Shown: positions 281-8,854 of the stretch, in pieces | Layout of the letters: every line of letters starts with the position of its first letter | How positions within the stretch are numbered: position 1 is the first letter of the stretch | From: Thiomicrorhabdus immobilis | Lineage (GTDB): Bacteria > Pseudomonadota > Gammaproteobacteria > Thiomicrospirales > Thiomicrospiraceae | Direction: 5' to 3' | Assembly (NCBI RefSeq): GCF_021654855.1 | Contig: NZ_AP024202.1 | Coordinates: 1,240,001 to 1,304,000 of the forward strand | DNA length: 64,000 bases | Notes under the pieces: model-generated | What the model was told of the DNA's origin: nothing | Database searches by the model: none | What the model saw: the letters and a program-made list of their open reading frames with translations, nothing else | Made by a program: the position numbers and the translations under genes

Positions 281-925
281 GTGTTGTGGTTTGTAGTTCG
301 CTATGTTCTATGGTTAGTACTGCTATTCGCTCTGTTTTTTATTGAATCCATTTCTCCTCTTTATTTTGTGCAAACCTGGCAAACGGATTTAACCATTTAC
401 CTCACCCATTTATGGATTGATGGTTTTGATATTCCCGTCAAGATGGTTGGAAACACCGTTTATTTGGACCATGGATTCAATATCTGGATTTTGGATGGCT
501 GTAATGGTCTAGCCGCCTATTTACTGTTCGGTGTGGCGATATTAGCTTACCCAACCGTTTGGTTGAGTAGATTGATTTGGTTGCTTGAGGGGTATTTCTA
601 TCTAGTTGTTATAAACTCGATACGAATTGATTTTGTAGTGTATTTAACCATGTTTGATGCGGACTACTTTTACTGTGCTCATGATTGTATTGGGCGTTTA
701 TGTATGGTGGCAACGACCTTGTTATTGTTTATGTTGTTTACCTTCCGTGTGCAACTCAGTCGACAGGCTCGTAATCAATACGATCGCAGAAAGGGAGAGC
801 GTGATAGAAGACATGCTCATGCCCATGAATGGCGCGAAGCTAAAGAGGAACGCAGGCATAATAAAGAACCAAGGCGTAAACAGCAAGATAGAAGGGAGAA
901 ACCTCCTGAAAGGTTGAAGCTGTAA
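281..925 (+). CDS. Exosortase / archaeosortase family transpeptidase, XrtH-like
   Basis: This is a 214-residue integral membrane protein. The exosortase catalytic triad is visible: Cys74 in DGCNGL, Arg115 in NSIRI and His134 in CAHD, each at the edge of a hydrophobic helix. Exosortases cut and transfer proteins carrying a C-terminal tripartite signal at the inner membrane. The spacing and the GCNG motif look most like the XrtH subgroup, but the likely partner immediately upstream lacks the IPTLxxWG signal that XrtH uses. After the last helix (about residue 157) there is a tail of some 55 residues that is extremely rich in Arg, Lys, Glu and His, presumably cytoplasmic and not needed for catalysis. 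The start is GTG at 281, supported by an AAGAGG ribosome binding site about nine bases upstream. The family call is firm; subgroup and substrate are inferred. Confidence 0.85.
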   Translation: MLWFVVRYVLWLVLLFALFFIESISPLYFVQTWQTDLTIYLTHLWIDGFDIPVKMVGNTVYLDHGFNIWILDGCNGLAAYLLFGVAILAYPTVWLSRLIWLLEGYFYLVVINSIRIDFVVYLTMFDADYFYCAHDCIGRLCMVATTLLLFMLFTFRVQLSRQARNQYDRRKGERDRRHAHAHEWREAKEERRHNKEPRRKQQDRREKPPERLKL

Positions 926-2569: not shown

Positions 2570-5500
2570 TCACTCGGTGGTTGCAATGCTGCGAATAACC
2601 AGTTCAATCGCCGATATTCTTTGTTCAATAGTGGGCATTGTATCGAAAAAGCTCAGTTCCGTTTGCCCTTTTAGTTGAAATTGCTTAGGTTGTGATTGAA
2701 TTAACTTAATCAGCTTCATTGGGTCAATGTTTGGTTCATTATTGAACTGAATGCGAATCATCGATTCCCCAGCATCAAGCTTGGTGATGCCAATCGGTTC
2801 GATGAGCAGTTTAATCCGGGTCACTGCAAACAATTGTTTAACCGGGTCAGGCAGTAAACCAAAGCGATCAATCATCTCTACTTCCAGTTCACGTAGGTCG
2901 GCTTTGCTGTGAGCGCTGGCAATGCGTTTGTAGAAAACCAAACGGGTGTGCACATCGGGCAAATAGTCTTCGGGAATCAAGGCGGTTACCCCCAAATCAA
3001 CTTCGCTACTACTATGTAATGCGGTATTGAGTTCAGGTTGTTTGCCCGACTTGAGAGCTTTAACGGCACGTTCAAGCAGTTCACTGTACAAGCCAAATCC
3101 AATCTCCTGAATCTGTCCTGATTGCCCATCACCTAAAAGTTCACCCGCACCGCGGATTTCCAAATCATGACTGGCAAGCATAAAGCCCGCTCCTAAGGTA
3201 TCGTGTTTGGCTATCGCAGTGAGGCGTTTTTCGGCGTCCTTGGTCAACATCGATTTTCCAGCGGTAAACATATAAGCGTAAGCTTTGTGATGTGAACGTC
3301 CGACACGGCCTCGTAGCTGGTGTAGCTGAGCTAAACCGAATTTATCGGCACGATGGATGAGGATGGTGTTGGCGGTAGGAATGTCGATACCGGTCTCAAT
3401 GATAGTGGTGCAAACTAGGATGTTATAACGGCGATGATAGAAATTTTCCATCACCGCTTCCAGTTCACGTTCGTGCATTTGCCCGTGGGCGTAAGTCACC
3501 TTGGCTTCGGGAATCAGTGCCTCGATATGTTCAACCATCTTTTCAATCTTATCGACTTGATTATAAAGAATGTAAACCTGGCCGCCTCGACGAATTTCAC
3601 GCAGGGATGCCTCTCTGACCACATCGTCATTCCATTCCTGCACGAAGGTTTGTACCGCAAGGCGTTTGGCGGGCGCAGTGGCGATAATGGATAGGTCTCT
3701 AAGGTCATTCATGGCCATATTCAGCGTTCGTGGGATTGGTGTGGCGGTCATGGTTAAGACATCCACTTCGGTGCGCATCTTTTTAAGTTGCTCTTTTTGC
3801 CTGACCCCGAAACGATGCTCTTCATCAATGATGATTAACCCCAGATGTTTGTAATCGACATTCTTTTGAATCAATTTGTGGGTGCCGATAATGATGTCGA
3901 CTTTGCCGGCCTTAAGGTCTTCTAAAGTAGTTTTTTGCTGTTTTGGCGTTTGAAAACGTGACAGCACTTCAATACGTACCGGCCAATCCGAAAAACGGCT
4001 TCTGAAATTTTCCAGGTGCTGATGCGCCAATAGGGTAGTTGGCACAAGCATGGCGACTTGTTTACCATCGTAGGCGGCAATAAAAGCCGCACGCATGGCG
4101 ACTTCGGTTTTACCGAAACCAACATCACCGCAAACCAGTCGATCCATCGGAAGTTCCGAATGCATATCTTCGATAACGGCTTCTATCGCTTGTTGTTGAT
4201 CGGGGGTTTCTTCAAATGGAAAGCTGGAGGCAAAGCGTTGGTAAGCTTCCTCGGGTGTTTTAAAGGCGTAACCGGGTCTGGCGGCACGTTGTGCGTAAAC
4301 ATCCAATAACTCTGCAGCTACATCGCGGACTTTTTCTGCGGCCTTACGTTTGGCCTTTTCCCATTTATCGCTGCCTAAACGGTGCAGAGGTGCAGTTTCT
4401 GGAGTGGCACCGGTATAACGGCTGATTAGGTGTAGCGATGAAACTGGAACGTAGAGTTTTGCATCACCTGCGTATTCGATCATCAAGAACTCTTTTTTAT
4501 CGCCTTGGATTTCTAGAGTTTCCAGACCTAGATAGCGACCAACACCGTGGTCGATGTGTACGATTGGACTGCCTAAGTCGAGTTCTATCAAGTTACTGAC
4601 AGCGGTATTGAAGTCATCGTGTTTACGCTTACGGCGACGCTTCTGAACGACGGTTTGCCCAAAAATTTGGGTTTCAGAGATTACACTGAATTGCTCGGTA
4701 TGGATTGACGTCTCTAACGGACTAACGACAATGCAGTATGGCTGATTGGATTTGATCGCTTCCTGCCAGGTTCCGACAATTTGAGGGTGTTGTTGATATT
4801 TCCCAAGCAGGGTGAGTAAGGTTTCACGACGACCGGTGGTTTCGGCACTGTATATGACCTTGTGTTTATAGAGGTCTAGGAAGGCGTTGAGTTTGGCTAG
4901 CGGATATTCACTGTTGGATTGGACACCTAAGTCCGGTAGAGGTTGGGTGTCAAATATGGCCGTGGTTTTTTCCGAACAAACCGTTTCCAGAGTGATTCTA
5001 TGATGTTGCTTTAATTCCGTTAAGAACTGGTTTGGCTGTAATAAAATTTCGGCCGGCTTGAGTAACGGAAAGTCTGGATTATGTTGGCCAATTTCATAAC
5101 GTTCACTGTAATCCATCAATGTTTGATCAAGAGTTTGTTCGGTATTGCCAAAATCGAAAAAAAGACTATTTTCGGGCAGATAGTGAAACAGGCTGGTCAG
5201 TTCTTCATGAAATAAGGGTAGGTAATACTCTAGACCGCCAATGTTTTGCGCCTCGGTAACGCTTTTATAAACTTGCGCTTTTCGTGCCTCATCACCAAAA
5301 TAGTCTTTGAATTTATTTCTAAATAAATCAATTCCTTGCTTGGTGAAGTTAAACTCCTTTGCAGGTAGTAATTCAATCTTTTCTATCTGTTCAATAGAGC
5401 GCTGGGTTTCTGGATCAAAACTACGGATGGATTCCACTTCATCATCAAACAAGTCTATTCTGAATGGGGTTTTACTACCCATCGGGAATAGGTCGATAAT

Positions 5501-6016
5501 CGCTCCTCTGACTGCAAATTCACCATGCTCGTATACTTGACCGACTCTTTGATAGCTTCCTGATTCAAGCTGCTGGCTGAATTTTTCTACATCTACCGTG
5601 TCGCCGGTTTTAAGCATAAAAGTAAACTGTTGAATGTAATCATGCGGTACCACTTTTTGCATGAAAGTGGCGATGGGCACAATCAAGACACCATGATCAA
5701 TACTGGGTAGACGATAAAGCGTTTTTAGTCGTTCTGAAACAATGTCTTGATGCGGTGAGAATTGGTCATAGGGCAGGGTTTCCCACTCAGGAAAGGTTAG
5801 GATTTCAGTAGAGTTCGCAAGAAAAAACGCCAAGTTTTCTTGGAGCTGGTTGGCCATTTGTGAGTTTTCAGTAAGAATAATCACCAGGCCTGGTGACGTT
5901 TGAATTCTATTAGCAATTGCCAAAGCGCTTTCAGATTGGGTTAGAGGTGCCCAAAATGAACGGTGGCCTTTAAGGGTGATTTGTTCTGGCGAGAGTAATG
6001 ACGCAAGTTTTTTCAT
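2570..6016 (-). CDS. mfd: Transcription-repair coupling factor Mfd
   Basis: A DNA translocase that displaces RNA polymerase stalled at lesions and recruits UvrA. At 1148 residues it is full length. In order it has the UvrB-like N-terminal module (about 1-330, including VIVPIATFMQKVVPHD), the RNA polymerase interacting domain (about 475-550, IVHIDHGVGRYLGLE), and a superfamily 2 helicase core. The core shows Walker A GDVGFGKTEVAM near residue 630, the DEEH box near 730, TMTATPIPRTL, and the QLRGRVGRSHHKAYAYM motif VI. A C-terminal TRCF domain closes the protein. The start ATG at 6016 gives the expected N-terminus. csiV follows in the same direction with a gap of about 55 bp. Confidence 0.98.
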   Translation of the reverse strand: MKKLASLLSPEQITLKGHRSFWAPLTQSESALAIANRIQTSPGLVIILTENSQMANQLQENLAFFLANSTEILTFPEWETLPYDQFSPHQDIVSERLKTLYRLPSIDHGVLIVPIATFMQKVVPHDYIQQFTFMLKTGDTVDVEKFSQQLESGSYQRVGQVYEHGEFAVRGAIIDLFPMGSKTPFRIDLFDDEVESIRSFDPETQRSIEQIEKIELLPAKEFNFTKQGIDLFRNKFKDYFGDEARKAQVYKSVTEAQNIGGLEYYLPLFHEELTSLFHYLPENSLFFDFGNTEQTLDQTLMDYSERYEIGQHNPDFPLLKPAEILLQPNQFLTELKQHHRITLETVCSEKTTAIFDTQPLPDLGVQSNSEYPLAKLNAFLDLYKHKVIYSAETTGRRETLLTLLGKYQQHPQIVGTWQEAIKSNQPYCIVVSPLETSIHTEQFSVISETQIFGQTVVQKRRRKRKHDDFNTAVSNLIELDLGSPIVHIDHGVGRYLGLETLEIQGDKKEFLMIEYAGDAKLYVPVSSLHLISRYTGATPETAPLHRLGSDKWEKAKRKAAEKVRDVAAELLDVYAQRAARPGYAFKTPEEAYQRFASSFPFEETPDQQQAIEAVIEDMHSELPMDRLVCGDVGFGKTEVAMRAAFIAAYDGKQVAMLVPTTLLAHQHLENFRSRFSDWPVRIEVLSRFQTPKQQKTTLEDLKAGKVDIIIGTHKLIQKNVDYKHLGLIIIDEEHRFGVRQKEQLKKMRTEVDVLTMTATPIPRTLNMAMNDLRDLSIIATAPAKRLAVQTFVQEWNDDVVREASLREIRRGGQVYILYNQVDKIEKMVEHIEALIPEAKVTYAHGQMHERELEAVMENFYHRRYNILVCTTIIETGIDIPTANTILIHRADKFGLAQLHQLRGRVGRSHHKAYAYMFTAGKSMLTKDAEKRLTAIAKHDTLGAGFMLASHDLEIRGAGELLGDGQSGQIQEIGFGLYSELLERAVKALKSGKQPELNTALHSSSEVDLGVTALIPEDYLPDVHTRLVFYKRIASAHSKADLRELEVEMIDRFGLLPDPVKQLFAVTRIKLLIEPIGITKLDAGESMIRIQFNNEPNIDPMKLIKLIQSQPKQFQLKGQTELSFFDTMPTIEQRISAIELVIRSIATTE
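5883..5894. repeat. Iterated palindrome ACCAGGCCTGGT, copy 2
   Basis: Inside mfd; the palindrome extends to 16 bases (5881-5896). In mfd it encodes part of SPGLV. Confidence 0.9.
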
Positions 6017-6108: not shown

Positions 6109-7320
6109 GTGGGGAATTGGGCTTTTTCTTGGGTGCAGATAATGGCTCATAACAAATCAAAATTACTTGCTGTTTGGGGTGTAATCAGTGCGTTAAGTTT
6201 GCTTGGAATCTTTAATTTAGATTTTTCAATGGTGTTGCCGGAAATGCTTTTGTTTGCAGCGAGCTTGGTTGTAATGAGTGCCGTTGTGGGATATTTGTTG
6301 GAGTCACCTAAGGTAGCGGTTTTACAATTAGGGCTAAGTGTTTATATTGCCTTGATGACGTTTGGATCTTTAGGTTGGTTGGGGTATGGCTTAACTCAGC
6401 AATCACTTTTGGGTTTGGTGGTTCTAATGACATTGTTAAGCAGTAACTTGGTCCATATTCTAAGTACCTTGTTGCGAGAGATGGCCAGGGGGTTGTTTCA
6501 ATATGATGCCGTTGCGGAAGCTTTGAAATTGAATGCATCACCGATCTTTTTATCCAATCTAACGACTGCGCTAGGGTTTGTGTTTGCTGCATGGATGGAT
6601 CCTCAGTACATGAGCTTGGCATGGTTGGTTGTGATTGGTGTGAGTTTTAGTTTTTTAATGAGTATCAGTTGGTTGCCGATGATGCTTTTAAACTGGTTGT
6701 TGGAGTTTAGGGTGGGGAATCCAGCAGATAGGCACGGCTTGACCTTTTTGGCGAAATGGCTTGAGAAAAATACCTTATATAGAAAAGGCTTTGTTGCGAT
6801 AAGCTTGCTTTTAGGGGTTGTTCTAATCGGTTTGAATTGGAATGTCTTGCAGGGACTTGAACAGTTCATGTGGTTGATGGTTTTGTTTGTAGTGCTGTTT
6901 TGGTGGTTTTGGAAAAGTCTGGGGTTAGCTTTGCTAAATGTGTGGGTTAATTTGCTCGCCTTACTTACAGCGATGACACTGTTCACTTGGTTCTGTGGTG
7001 ACTCTCAATGGGCTTTTTTGTTATGGATGGTGCCATTAGGGTTGATTGTCGATGATGGGATTCACTTTTTCTCACGTTACGCCCGTGCAAAATATACCGT
7101 TTTTTCAGAACCGAAGTCAGCGGTTGTTTTTGCAATGGCAAGTGTCGGTCGACCTATTTGGATCACCTCTTGGGTATTGTTTTCAGGTTTGGCGGTTTTA
7201 TTGTTCAGTGAAAACCAAATGGTATATCAGGCCAGTCTATTGACCATGTTAGCCCTGGTTATCGCCACGATTCTCATATTGACAGTGCTTCCTGCTATTT
7301 TAATGACAAAAAGAAATTAA
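6109..7320 (+). CDS. Compact RND/MMPL-like membrane protein without porter domains
   Basis: This 403-residue protein is almost entirely hydrophobic, with about eleven or twelve helices in two repeats. Each repeat ends in the transmembrane helix 4-5 signature of the RND superfamily. The first is VHILSTLLREMARG followed by NASPIFLSNLTTALGF; the second is DDGIHFFSRYARAKY followed by VGRPIWITSWVLFSGLAVL. Ordinary RND exporters insert a periplasmic domain of 200-300 residues after helix 1 and helix 7 of each half; here those are missing, which explains the short length. The second half keeps an acidic DD pair where proton-relay acids sit in RND pumps; the first half has no acid there. The GTG start at 6109 has GAGG five to six bases upstream; ATG 6142 is an alternative. 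Function and substrate are unknown. Confidence 0.7.
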   Translation: MGNWAFSWVQIMAHNKSKLLAVWGVISALSLLGIFNLDFSMVLPEMLLFAASLVVMSAVVGYLLESPKVAVLQLGLSVYIALMTFGSLGWLGYGLTQQSLLGLVVLMTLLSSNLVHILSTLLREMARGLFQYDAVAEALKLNASPIFLSNLTTALGFVFAAWMDPQYMSLAWLVVIGVSFSFLMSISWLPMMLLNWLLEFRVGNPADRHGLTFLAKWLEKNTLYRKGFVAISLLLGVVLIGLNWNVLQGLEQFMWLMVLFVVLFWWFWKSLGLALLNVWVNLLALLTAMTLFTWFCGDSQWAFLLWMVPLGLIVDDGIHFFSRYARAKYTVFSEPKSAVVFAMASVGRPIWITSWVLFSGLAVLLFSENQMVYQASLLTMLALVIATILILTVLPAILMTKRN

Positions 7321-7471: not shown

Positions 7472-7537
7472 GAGGAGGTCGTTTTCATAAGTGTTGAAAA
7501 TGGTTTTTCATTAAAAATAATAAGATGAGGCATAAAC

Positions 7538-8854
7538 ATGGCAACAGTTGTTGTAGTTGGTTCAAGTACCGGTGGTTTACCGATGTCTTACGATATTCGT
7601 AAGCATTTAGATAAGGGTCACACAGTAAAGGTAGTAAACGCAGTTGATGAGTTCAGTTTTGTTCCTTCTAACCCTTGGGTAGCAGTGGGTTGGAGAAAGG
7701 CGGAAGATATCTCTTTCAAACTGGAACCTTATTTAACGCGTAAAGGTATTGAATTCTACAACCAGACTTGTGTTGGTTTAGACCCAGAAAACAACAATAT
7801 CACTTTAGATGACGGTACGGTAATGGATTATGACTATCTGATCCTTTCTACTGGTCCAGCACTTGCCTTTGATGAAGTTGAAGGTTTTGGCCCTAAGAGC
7901 CATGGTGGTAACACGGTTTCTGTTTGTACTACTCCACATGCTGTTGAAGCTTATGAGCAATGGGAAGAGTTCTGTAAAGATCCAGGTCCGATTATTATCG
8001 GTGCGGTTCAGGGTGCCTCTTGTTTCGGTCCTGCATATGAGTTTGCCATGATTATGGAAACGGATTTACGTAAGCGTAAGATCCGTAGCCAGGTTCCAAT
8101 GACATTTGTAACGGCCGAACCTTACATCGGTCACTTAGGTTTAGGTGGTGTGGGTGATTCTAAAGGTTTGATGGAATCAGAAATGCGCAACCGTCATATT
8201 GATTGGATTTGTAATGCGAAGACGACAAAAATCGAAGCTGGCATTATGTATGTTGATGAGCATAACAACCAAGGTGAAGTCATCAATTCACACGAATTAC
8301 CATTTAAATATGCAATGATGTTGCCTGCGTTCAAAGGTTCTAAGTTCCTTCAAGAAATGGTTGATGCGGATCCTGAAAAAATGGGTGGTCCATTAGTTAA
8401 CCCTCGTGGATTTGTGAAGGTTGACCAATTTAGCCGTAACCCGACTTATCACAATATTTATGCTTTAGGTGTAGGGATTGCGATTCCTCCTGTTGATACT
8501 AAATGTCCAGTTCCATGTGGTACACCAAAAACCGGTTTGATGATTGAGTCGATGGTTACAGCGATTTGTCATAACATTGAAGCTAACCTGGAAGGTAAAG
8601 AACCGCATGAAATTCCAACTTGGAACACCGTGTGTCTAGCGGATATGGGGGATTCTGGTGCAGCTTTCGTTGCTTTACCACAGATTCCTCCTCGTAACTT
8701 AACTTGGGCGAAGAAAGGTAAGTGGGTTCACTTGGCGAAGATTGCCTTTGAAAAATACTTCATCCGTAATATGAAATCAGGTAATTCAGAACCGATTTAT
8801 CAGAAATACATCATGAAAATGCTAGGTATTACTCGTCTGAAATCAGATAAATAA
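7538..8854 (+). CDS. sqr: Sulfide:quinone oxidoreductase-type flavoprotein
   Basis: Probably oxidises sulfide to polysulfide and passes electrons to membrane quinone. The 438 residues begin with an FAD-binding Rossmann motif (VVVVGSSTGGLPMSYDI) and contain the second FAD motif in YDYLILSTGPAL. Candidate redox cysteines are Cys130, Cys162 (GASCFGPAYEF) and Cys323/Cys327 (KCPVPCGTPKTG). The first two sit where the SQR cysteines Cys128 and Cys160 of the acidithiobacillus enzyme lie; the KTG element after the last pair is the usual isoalloxazine-contact region. A C-terminal segment (about 390-438, WAKKGKWVHLAKIAFEKYF) resembles the amphipathic membrane-binding end of SQR. The gene is monocistronic, with a hairpin leader and its own terminator. 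The subtype is not certain, and a flavocytochrome c-like or related NAD(P)/FAD oxidoreductase is the alternative. Confidence 0.8.
   Translation: MATVVVVGSSTGGLPMSYDIRKHLDKGHTVKVVNAVDEFSFVPSNPWVAVGWRKAEDISFKLEPYLTRKGIEFYNQTCVGLDPENNNITLDDGTVMDYDYLILSTGPALAFDEVEGFGPKSHGGNTVSVCTTPHAVEAYEQWEEFCKDPGPIIIGAVQGASCFGPAYEFAMIMETDLRKRKIRSQVPMTFVTAEPYIGHLGLGGVGDSKGLMESEMRNRHIDWICNAKTTKIEAGIMYVDEHNNQGEVINSHELPFKYAMMLPAFKGSKFLQEMVDADPEKMGGPLVNPRGFVKVDQFSRNPTYHNIYALGVGIAIPPVDTKCPVPCGTPKTGLMIESMVTAICHNIEANLEGKEPHEIPTWNTVCLADMGDSGAAFVALPQIPPRNLTWAKKGKWVHLAKIAFEKYFIRNMKSGNSEPIYQKYIMKMLGITRLKSDK

Follow-up and report, generated by a model that had tools for sequence, protein, structure and literature searches.

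A porter-less RND-superfamily protein reduced to its membrane core in one family of sulfur-oxidising bacteria

Introduction

We describe a loop-less RND/MMPL protein of 403 amino acids, encoded at positions 6109..7320 (+) of a 64,000-nucleotide stretch of the Thiomicrorhabdus immobilis genome (the window), which is well supported, in its architecture and in the selection acting on it, as a real, conserved and lineage-limited RND variant reduced to the membrane core. Our leading and still tentative reading is that it is a vertically inherited, functional member of the RND superfamily that works as a proton-driven membrane motor, probably acting on a substrate embedded in the membrane.

In known RND pumps the substrate is handled by the porter domains, and the energy of protons is supplied by the membrane domain. 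A two-repeat core that is kept by selection without porters poses the question of what the motor is capable of alone, and such a protein would allow proton coupling to be studied in a small construct, supplied by nature, that lacks the periplasmic half. In the portions of the open-licence literature available to us we found no account of a two-repeat RND protein that lacks periplasmic domains, and none of the mode of transport that a porter-less motor, if true, would represent.

Results

The open reading frame and its sequence matches

The 403-amino acid ORF is open at exactly 6109-7320 on the forward strand, with a GTG start and a TAA stop. The GTG start is supported because the orthologs begin at the same position, mostly with ATG, and have in common an N-terminal segment of the type WAFxWVQ. 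On the reverse strand the interval holds two ORFs of at least 80 amino acids (104 and 127). Residues 254-399 match Pfam MMPL (PF03176) with 27.6 bits, above the curated cut-off of 20.5, while the match to NCBIfam HAE3 (TIGR00921; E 5.5e-13) reaches 47.8 bits and lies below the curated cut-off of 351.9, as does that of the full-length relative L088 (166.8 bits). The match to SecDF by sequence is marginal (NCBIfam, E 0.094). A profile made from 27 orthologs finds solved RND pumps from sequence alone, namely MexK (3.8e-10) and MmpL3 (1.4e-09).

Predicted fold and absence of the porter domains

An AlphaFold2 model built on 24 sequences (mean pLDDT 89.4, pTM 0.88) has an N-terminal helix (residues 3-14) and 12 predicted membrane helices in two repeats of six, as in the RND fold. 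The top Foldseek match of the model is MmpL3 (E 4.7e-08), and VIA-align superimposes it on SecDF (3aqp_A; Z 40.0, rmsd 2.7, 378 residues aligned), AcrB (7b5p_C; Z 39.4, rmsd 3.0, 390 aligned), MmpL5 (9mw0_D; Z 39.1, rmsd 2.9, 391 aligned), the sterol transporter NCR1 (Z 38.5, rmsd 3.0, 388 aligned), MmpL3 (Z 38.3) and Patched (Ptch1; Z 37.8, rmsd 3.0, 393 aligned), with the superpositions on the SecDF, AcrB and MmpL structures spanning 378-394 of the 403 residues. Because of these matches to RND structures we assign the fold as an RND membrane domain; the predicted fold is that domain and nothing else, not the unrelated fold that the earlier note had named as its refutation, and this likeness of fold says nothing on function.

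The earlier note, made from the sequence alone, had also claimed that both periplasmic porter domains are missing, and this is confirmed. When ten full-length relatives are aligned with the protein, their porter domains fall at the TM1-TM2 and TM7-TM8 positions, where the model has only short joins: a TM1-TM2 loop of six residues (37-42; 6217..6234, +) at the site of the first domain and a TM7-TM8 join of eight residues (243-250; 6835..6858, +) at the site of the second. The large periplasmic domains otherwise typical of RND proteins are absent from both sites throughout the 27 aligned orthologs (402-442 amino acids), all of which have joins of 5-16 residues at TM1-TM2 and 7-11 residues at TM7-TM8.

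Conserved residues and the acidic site

Conservation was counted in 27 loop-less rows and compared with the 10 full-length relatives, one of which (L028) was read from an internal Met, its N-terminal part being absent. TM10 (residues 303-330; 7015..7098, +) carries the signature GLIVDDGIH with the acidic pair D315/D316 (7051-7056) and H319, and TM4 (residues 99-126; 6403..6486, +) carries N113 and H116. D315, H319, N113 and H116 are identical in 27/27 rows and D316 is found in 96% of them. Acidic residues of the kind sought in TM4 and/or TM10 of RND proteins are thus present in TM10, a statement of presence only, and none occupies the TM4 positions, where the signature is SSNLVH. The claim that the helix 4-5 signatures are kept in both halves therefore holds for the second half and not for the first, which has no acid. 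In the ten full-length relatives the first position of the first-half signature is A, and the second is N in 7/10 and D in 3/10. In an alignment with HAE1-type pumps, D315/D316 fall on the VDD of the latter, which we infer to be D407/D408 of AcrB. In our own reading of the alignment with the full-length relatives, no basic counterpart of AcrB K940/R971 was recognised in the first half, and at these positions the full-length relatives resemble the loop-less rows. Since no such counterpart is apparent, coupling could differ from that of AcrB.

By mean top frequency over the 27 rows, the most conserved membrane helices are TM5 (0.80), TM10 (0.76), TM4 (0.73) and TM11 (0.71), which, judged by sequence, are the putative proton-relay helices, and the least conserved are TM7 (0.38), TM1 (0.43) and TM2 (0.47). 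TM5 (residues 131-163; 6499..6597, +) contains Q131, D133, E137, P145, N150 and T152, each identical in 27/27, and TM11 (residues 335-364; 7111..7200, +) contains the motif SVGRPIWxTS. The most conserved segment of all is the N-terminal helix (0.84; residues 3-14; 6115..6150, +), which we read as amphipathic. The TM6-TM7 linker (0.69; residues 196-220; 6694..6768, +) contains the motif EFRVGNxxDRHG, which is fixed among the loop-less rows and not among the ten full-length relatives. The conserved residues cluster on the side that RND topology would make cytoplasmic, where the linker would also lie.

Distribution, selection and loss

The carrier family is a small family of sulfur-oxidising bacteria. 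At E<=1e-30 the protein has a match in 40/62 genomes of the family, spread over five of its seven genera, with named loci in Thiomicrorhabdus, Hydrogenovibrio, Thiomicrospira and Sulfurivirga, and also in unplaced MAGs. Thirty-nine of these matches span the full protein in open frames of 402-573 amino acids without inner stops; the fortieth carrier (G073) has residues 249-401 only, in a frame of 171 amino acids close to a contig end. The order-level search took in the same 62 genomes. An even sample of the class (369 genomes) gave matches in 107 genomes at 1e-20; among the matches listed, three are full-span and loop-less, all of the same family. Among the matches listed there are also some half-matches in short frames, each covering one half of the protein and several lying near a contig end (e.g. 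G288, 418; G246, 413; G256, 422 and 473; G252, 262; G350, 268; and G247, 324 amino acids), so that a short loop-less form among them is not strictly excluded. In a sample of the phylum (398 genomes), 35 match at 1e-19, including the window's own genome; the other 34 account for 53 matches, each of which is limited to one half and lies in an open frame of 767-847 amino acids. Full-span loop-less matches in the two samples thus come from one family only, for the class among the matches listed; these samples score the best five or fewer (class) and four or fewer (phylum) candidates per genome, and weaker loop-less relatives could escape.

Some members of the family (e.g. G009 and G003, loci L123 and L127) also have a full-length HAE3-like exporter of 803 amino acids. 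Such an exporter did not stand out in any of 12 carriers of the loop-less gene, the only candidate being an 803-amino acid frame in G021 at E 0.94.

Seven ortholog pairs were computed for dN/dS, of which three were dropped for saturated dS; the four with usable dS gave 0.064, 0.10, 0.116 and 0.097. Because dN/dS is about 0.1, we take the gene to be maintained by selection. It is also dispensable, since 22/62 family genomes (16 of the 50 better ones) have no match at threshold, one of the 22 having a decayed copy. This copy (G027; locus L057, 6740-7092) is interrupted by stops and frame breaks and is flanked by mfd and a sulfide:quinone reductase gene. In the stretch with mfd and the reductase of four further genomes that have no match (G003, G016, G029 and G058; L131-L134) no clear remnant was found, with a best E of 0.057. 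The intact relatives at the locus are loop-less too, so that the copy in the window is not an isolated deletion remnant, the case that the earlier note had set against its own reading; a deletion remnant is contradicted by the 39 full-span loop-less copies together with dN/dS of about 0.1.

The locus

Gene order was compared in 26 loci carrying the gene, plus the window. The earlier note had proposed looking for fixed neighbours, and the gene has two. The first is mfd, for the transcription-repair coupling factor (1148 amino acids; 2570..6016, -), which is the divergent neighbour in 39/40 carriers; in the remaining one (G073) mfd and the loop-less gene are on different contigs. The second is a sulfide:quinone reductase gene (438 amino acids; 7538..8854, +), which follows in the window after a gap of 217 b and lies downstream on the same strand in 39/39 carriers whose contig reaches it, that of G010 ending before. 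The reductase matches solved sulfide:quinone reductases (3sz0 and others; E 9.4e-149), which we take to be of type I. It is at least 80% identical in 48/53 family genomes having one, and is missing from 8/9 genomes of one genus (g5). Tcr_1170 of T. crunogena is mentioned as a putative SQR in the available portions of two papers (PMC2958825, PMC4891895).

The reductase is present in 40/40 carriers and in 53/62 family genomes, and the loop-less gene occurs in none of the nine reductase-free genomes, a co-occurrence that is confounded by ancestry. In 9/13 genomes with the reductase and without a loop-less match, among them all four of one genus (g2), mfd and the reductase gene adjoin without an intact loop-less gene, and for this reason the association of the two genes may reflect lineage synteny only. 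The loop-less protein is far less conserved than the reductase, whose gene lies 104-525 b downstream in the loci measured and so probably has its own promoter. An operon of the two genes is not supported, given these gaps. A promoter-like site is present at 7494-7521, and such sites are no commoner than in shuffled sequence.

Elsewhere in the window, a CsiV-like protein (Pfam PF10972, E 3.4e-32; 1869-2513, -) adjoins mfd and is one of 27 sequences that clustered together when gene order was compared. An exosortase/archaeosortase family protein with a charged C-terminal tail is encoded beside MinC at 281-925 (+); its XrtH-like match (E 3.2e-13) is below the model cut-off and its exo_archaeo signature is above (35.7 vs 23).

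Discussion

A proposed porter-less motor

In AcrB the acids D407/D408 lie at the interface of the two repeats, where they are faced by the basic residues K940 and R971, and protonation of the acids is proposed to toggle the repeats between engaged and disengaged states (PMC4359379). For the loop-less protein we infer proton coupling, a rocking motion and its direction. The parts of the motor would be the two six-helix repeats, the TM10 acidic site, the N-terminal helix and the conserved TM6-TM7 linker. D315/D316, facing N113/H116 across the repeat interface, would be protonated and deprotonated in turn, and this cycling would shift one repeat relative to the other, in the manner of AcrB. Since there is no porter to drive, the motion may instead move or flip a hydrophobic molecule that lies in the bilayer between the two repeats. 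A more specific version, in which this is a natural RND motor without a porter, whose repeats form the path and whose protons move a lipid, a quinone or a sulfur-linked hydrophobe within or across the bilayer, we consider doubtful.

Possible roles as a sensor or a transducer

Slightly less probable again is that the protein is a sensor or regulator, in which an SSD-like domain would bind a lipid or quinone and report through cytoplasmic elements, perhaps tied to sulfide oxidation. The presence of the reductase in all 40 carriers, and directly downstream in all 39 where the contig reaches it, would fit such a role, as would the clustering of conserved residues on the putative cytoplasmic side, which could equally mean a regulatory or a partner-binding function. 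However, the co-occurrence with the reductase is confounded by ancestry, the nine genomes in which mfd and the reductase adjoin without an intact loop-less gene may point to lineage synteny, and the reductase gene, whose product is much more conserved, lies 104-525 b downstream and probably has its own promoter. The acidic site is, moreover, retained. The earlier note had put forward the movement of lipid-like substrates within the membrane and sensing as conceivable roles; a conserved site of the proton type speaks, as far as sequence goes, rather for a proton-coupled motor than for a passive sensor.

We give a similarly low weight to an energy transducer, in which the core would spend the proton gradient on driving a separate, non-homologous partner, with the porter function coming from outside. 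There are analogies in SecDF, which assists Sec, and in TolQR/ExbBD, which drive partners. SecDF heads the VIA-align matches (Z 40.0), with AcrB and MmpL5 tied within 1, and the conserved N-terminal helix and the EFRVGNxxDRHG linker could be docking surfaces. Against this, the periplasmic loops are short, and a periplasmic partner would therefore have little to grip; nor is any periplasmic gene both co-oriented and fixed beside the loop-less gene. A search of 12 genomes with the full-length relative L088 as query (E<=1) gave no match confined to a porter domain: a weak match in G021 (residues 554-636, E 0.16, in a 469-amino acid frame) runs from the tail of the second porter domain into TM8, and another in G024 (residues 6-34, E 0.38) is TM1. 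This search is weak because the HAE1 pumps of the same genomes were found by their membrane parts only, their porters being missed too, and a diverged or non-homologous partner is possible. The earlier note had suggested looking for fixed neighbours or separate periplasmic partners in relatives; the neighbours are fixed and no partner was seen, in the 12 genomes of this weak search or fixed beside the gene.

Remnant or ancestral state as improbable readings

It is very improbable that the protein is a pump stripped of its porter domains and now decaying, as the decayed copy at the locus in G027 and the absence of the gene from related genomes might suggest, since the protein is full-span, loop-less and without inner stops in 39/62 family genomes, its site residues are invariant in 27/27 rows, and purifying selection (dN/dS about 0.1) contradicts decay. 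Equally little credence can be given to the view that the loop-less form predates the porter domains in RND, with no loss, for which a HAE1-rooted tree that sets the loop-less rows outside HAE3/MMPL (with support values of 62 on the loop-less group and 83 on the remaining sequences) may be cited; but this tree has long branches, only two HAE1 sequences, a wrongly included unrelated ORF (L119) and several weak nodes (52-71) inside the loop-less group, and loss of the porters is the simpler account because full-span loop-less matches come from one family only (in the class sample among the matches listed, and in the phylum sample) and the RND structures matched possess porter domains.

Comparison with known systems

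Outside the family, this putative motor is matched best in sequence by full-length RND exporters of the HAE3/MMPL type from Pseudomonadota (around 760-850 amino acids, e.g. L088). With ten such relatives it has in common the TM10 signature GIxVDDTVHF, a first-half A[N/D]xxH that replaces the acidic VDD, and N-x-x-P in TM5. The two porter domains of these exporters are absent from the loop-less family, which has features of its own in the fixed TM6-TM7 linker, Q131, W268 and R323. The membrane fold is common to MmpL3 and MmpL5 (Foldseek E 4.7e-08 for MmpL3; Z 38.3 and 39.1), but MmpL proteins differ in possessing porter domains as well as a D-Y pair in TM4 and another in TM10, whereas the loop-less protein lacks the porters and is acidic in TM10 only. 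With AcrB and other HAE1 pumps it shares the 12-helix core and an acidic pair aligned with VDD, which is in the second repeat here and in the first repeat there; in comparison with AcrB we recognised, in our own reading, no K940/R971 counterpart, and both porter and docking domains are lacking. The highest VIA-align Z (40.0) is that of SecDF, whose P domains are smaller than those of AcrB; SecDF, which assists the Sec machinery, has kept a functional P1 domain in the periplasm.

Finally, the proteins with a sterol-sensing domain, NPC1/NCR1 and Patched, have the membrane fold in common with the loop-less protein (NCR1 Z 38.5, Ptch1 Z 37.8). An SSD without porter domains exists in Scap and HMG-CoA reductase. 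The SSD, however, comprises a single repeat, while the core of the loop-less protein has two and keeps a conserved acidic site. In AcrB, TM2-4 are the counterpart of the sterol-sensing domain in NPC1 (PMC5719797). The loop-less core may inform the origin of sterol-sensing domains from transporters.
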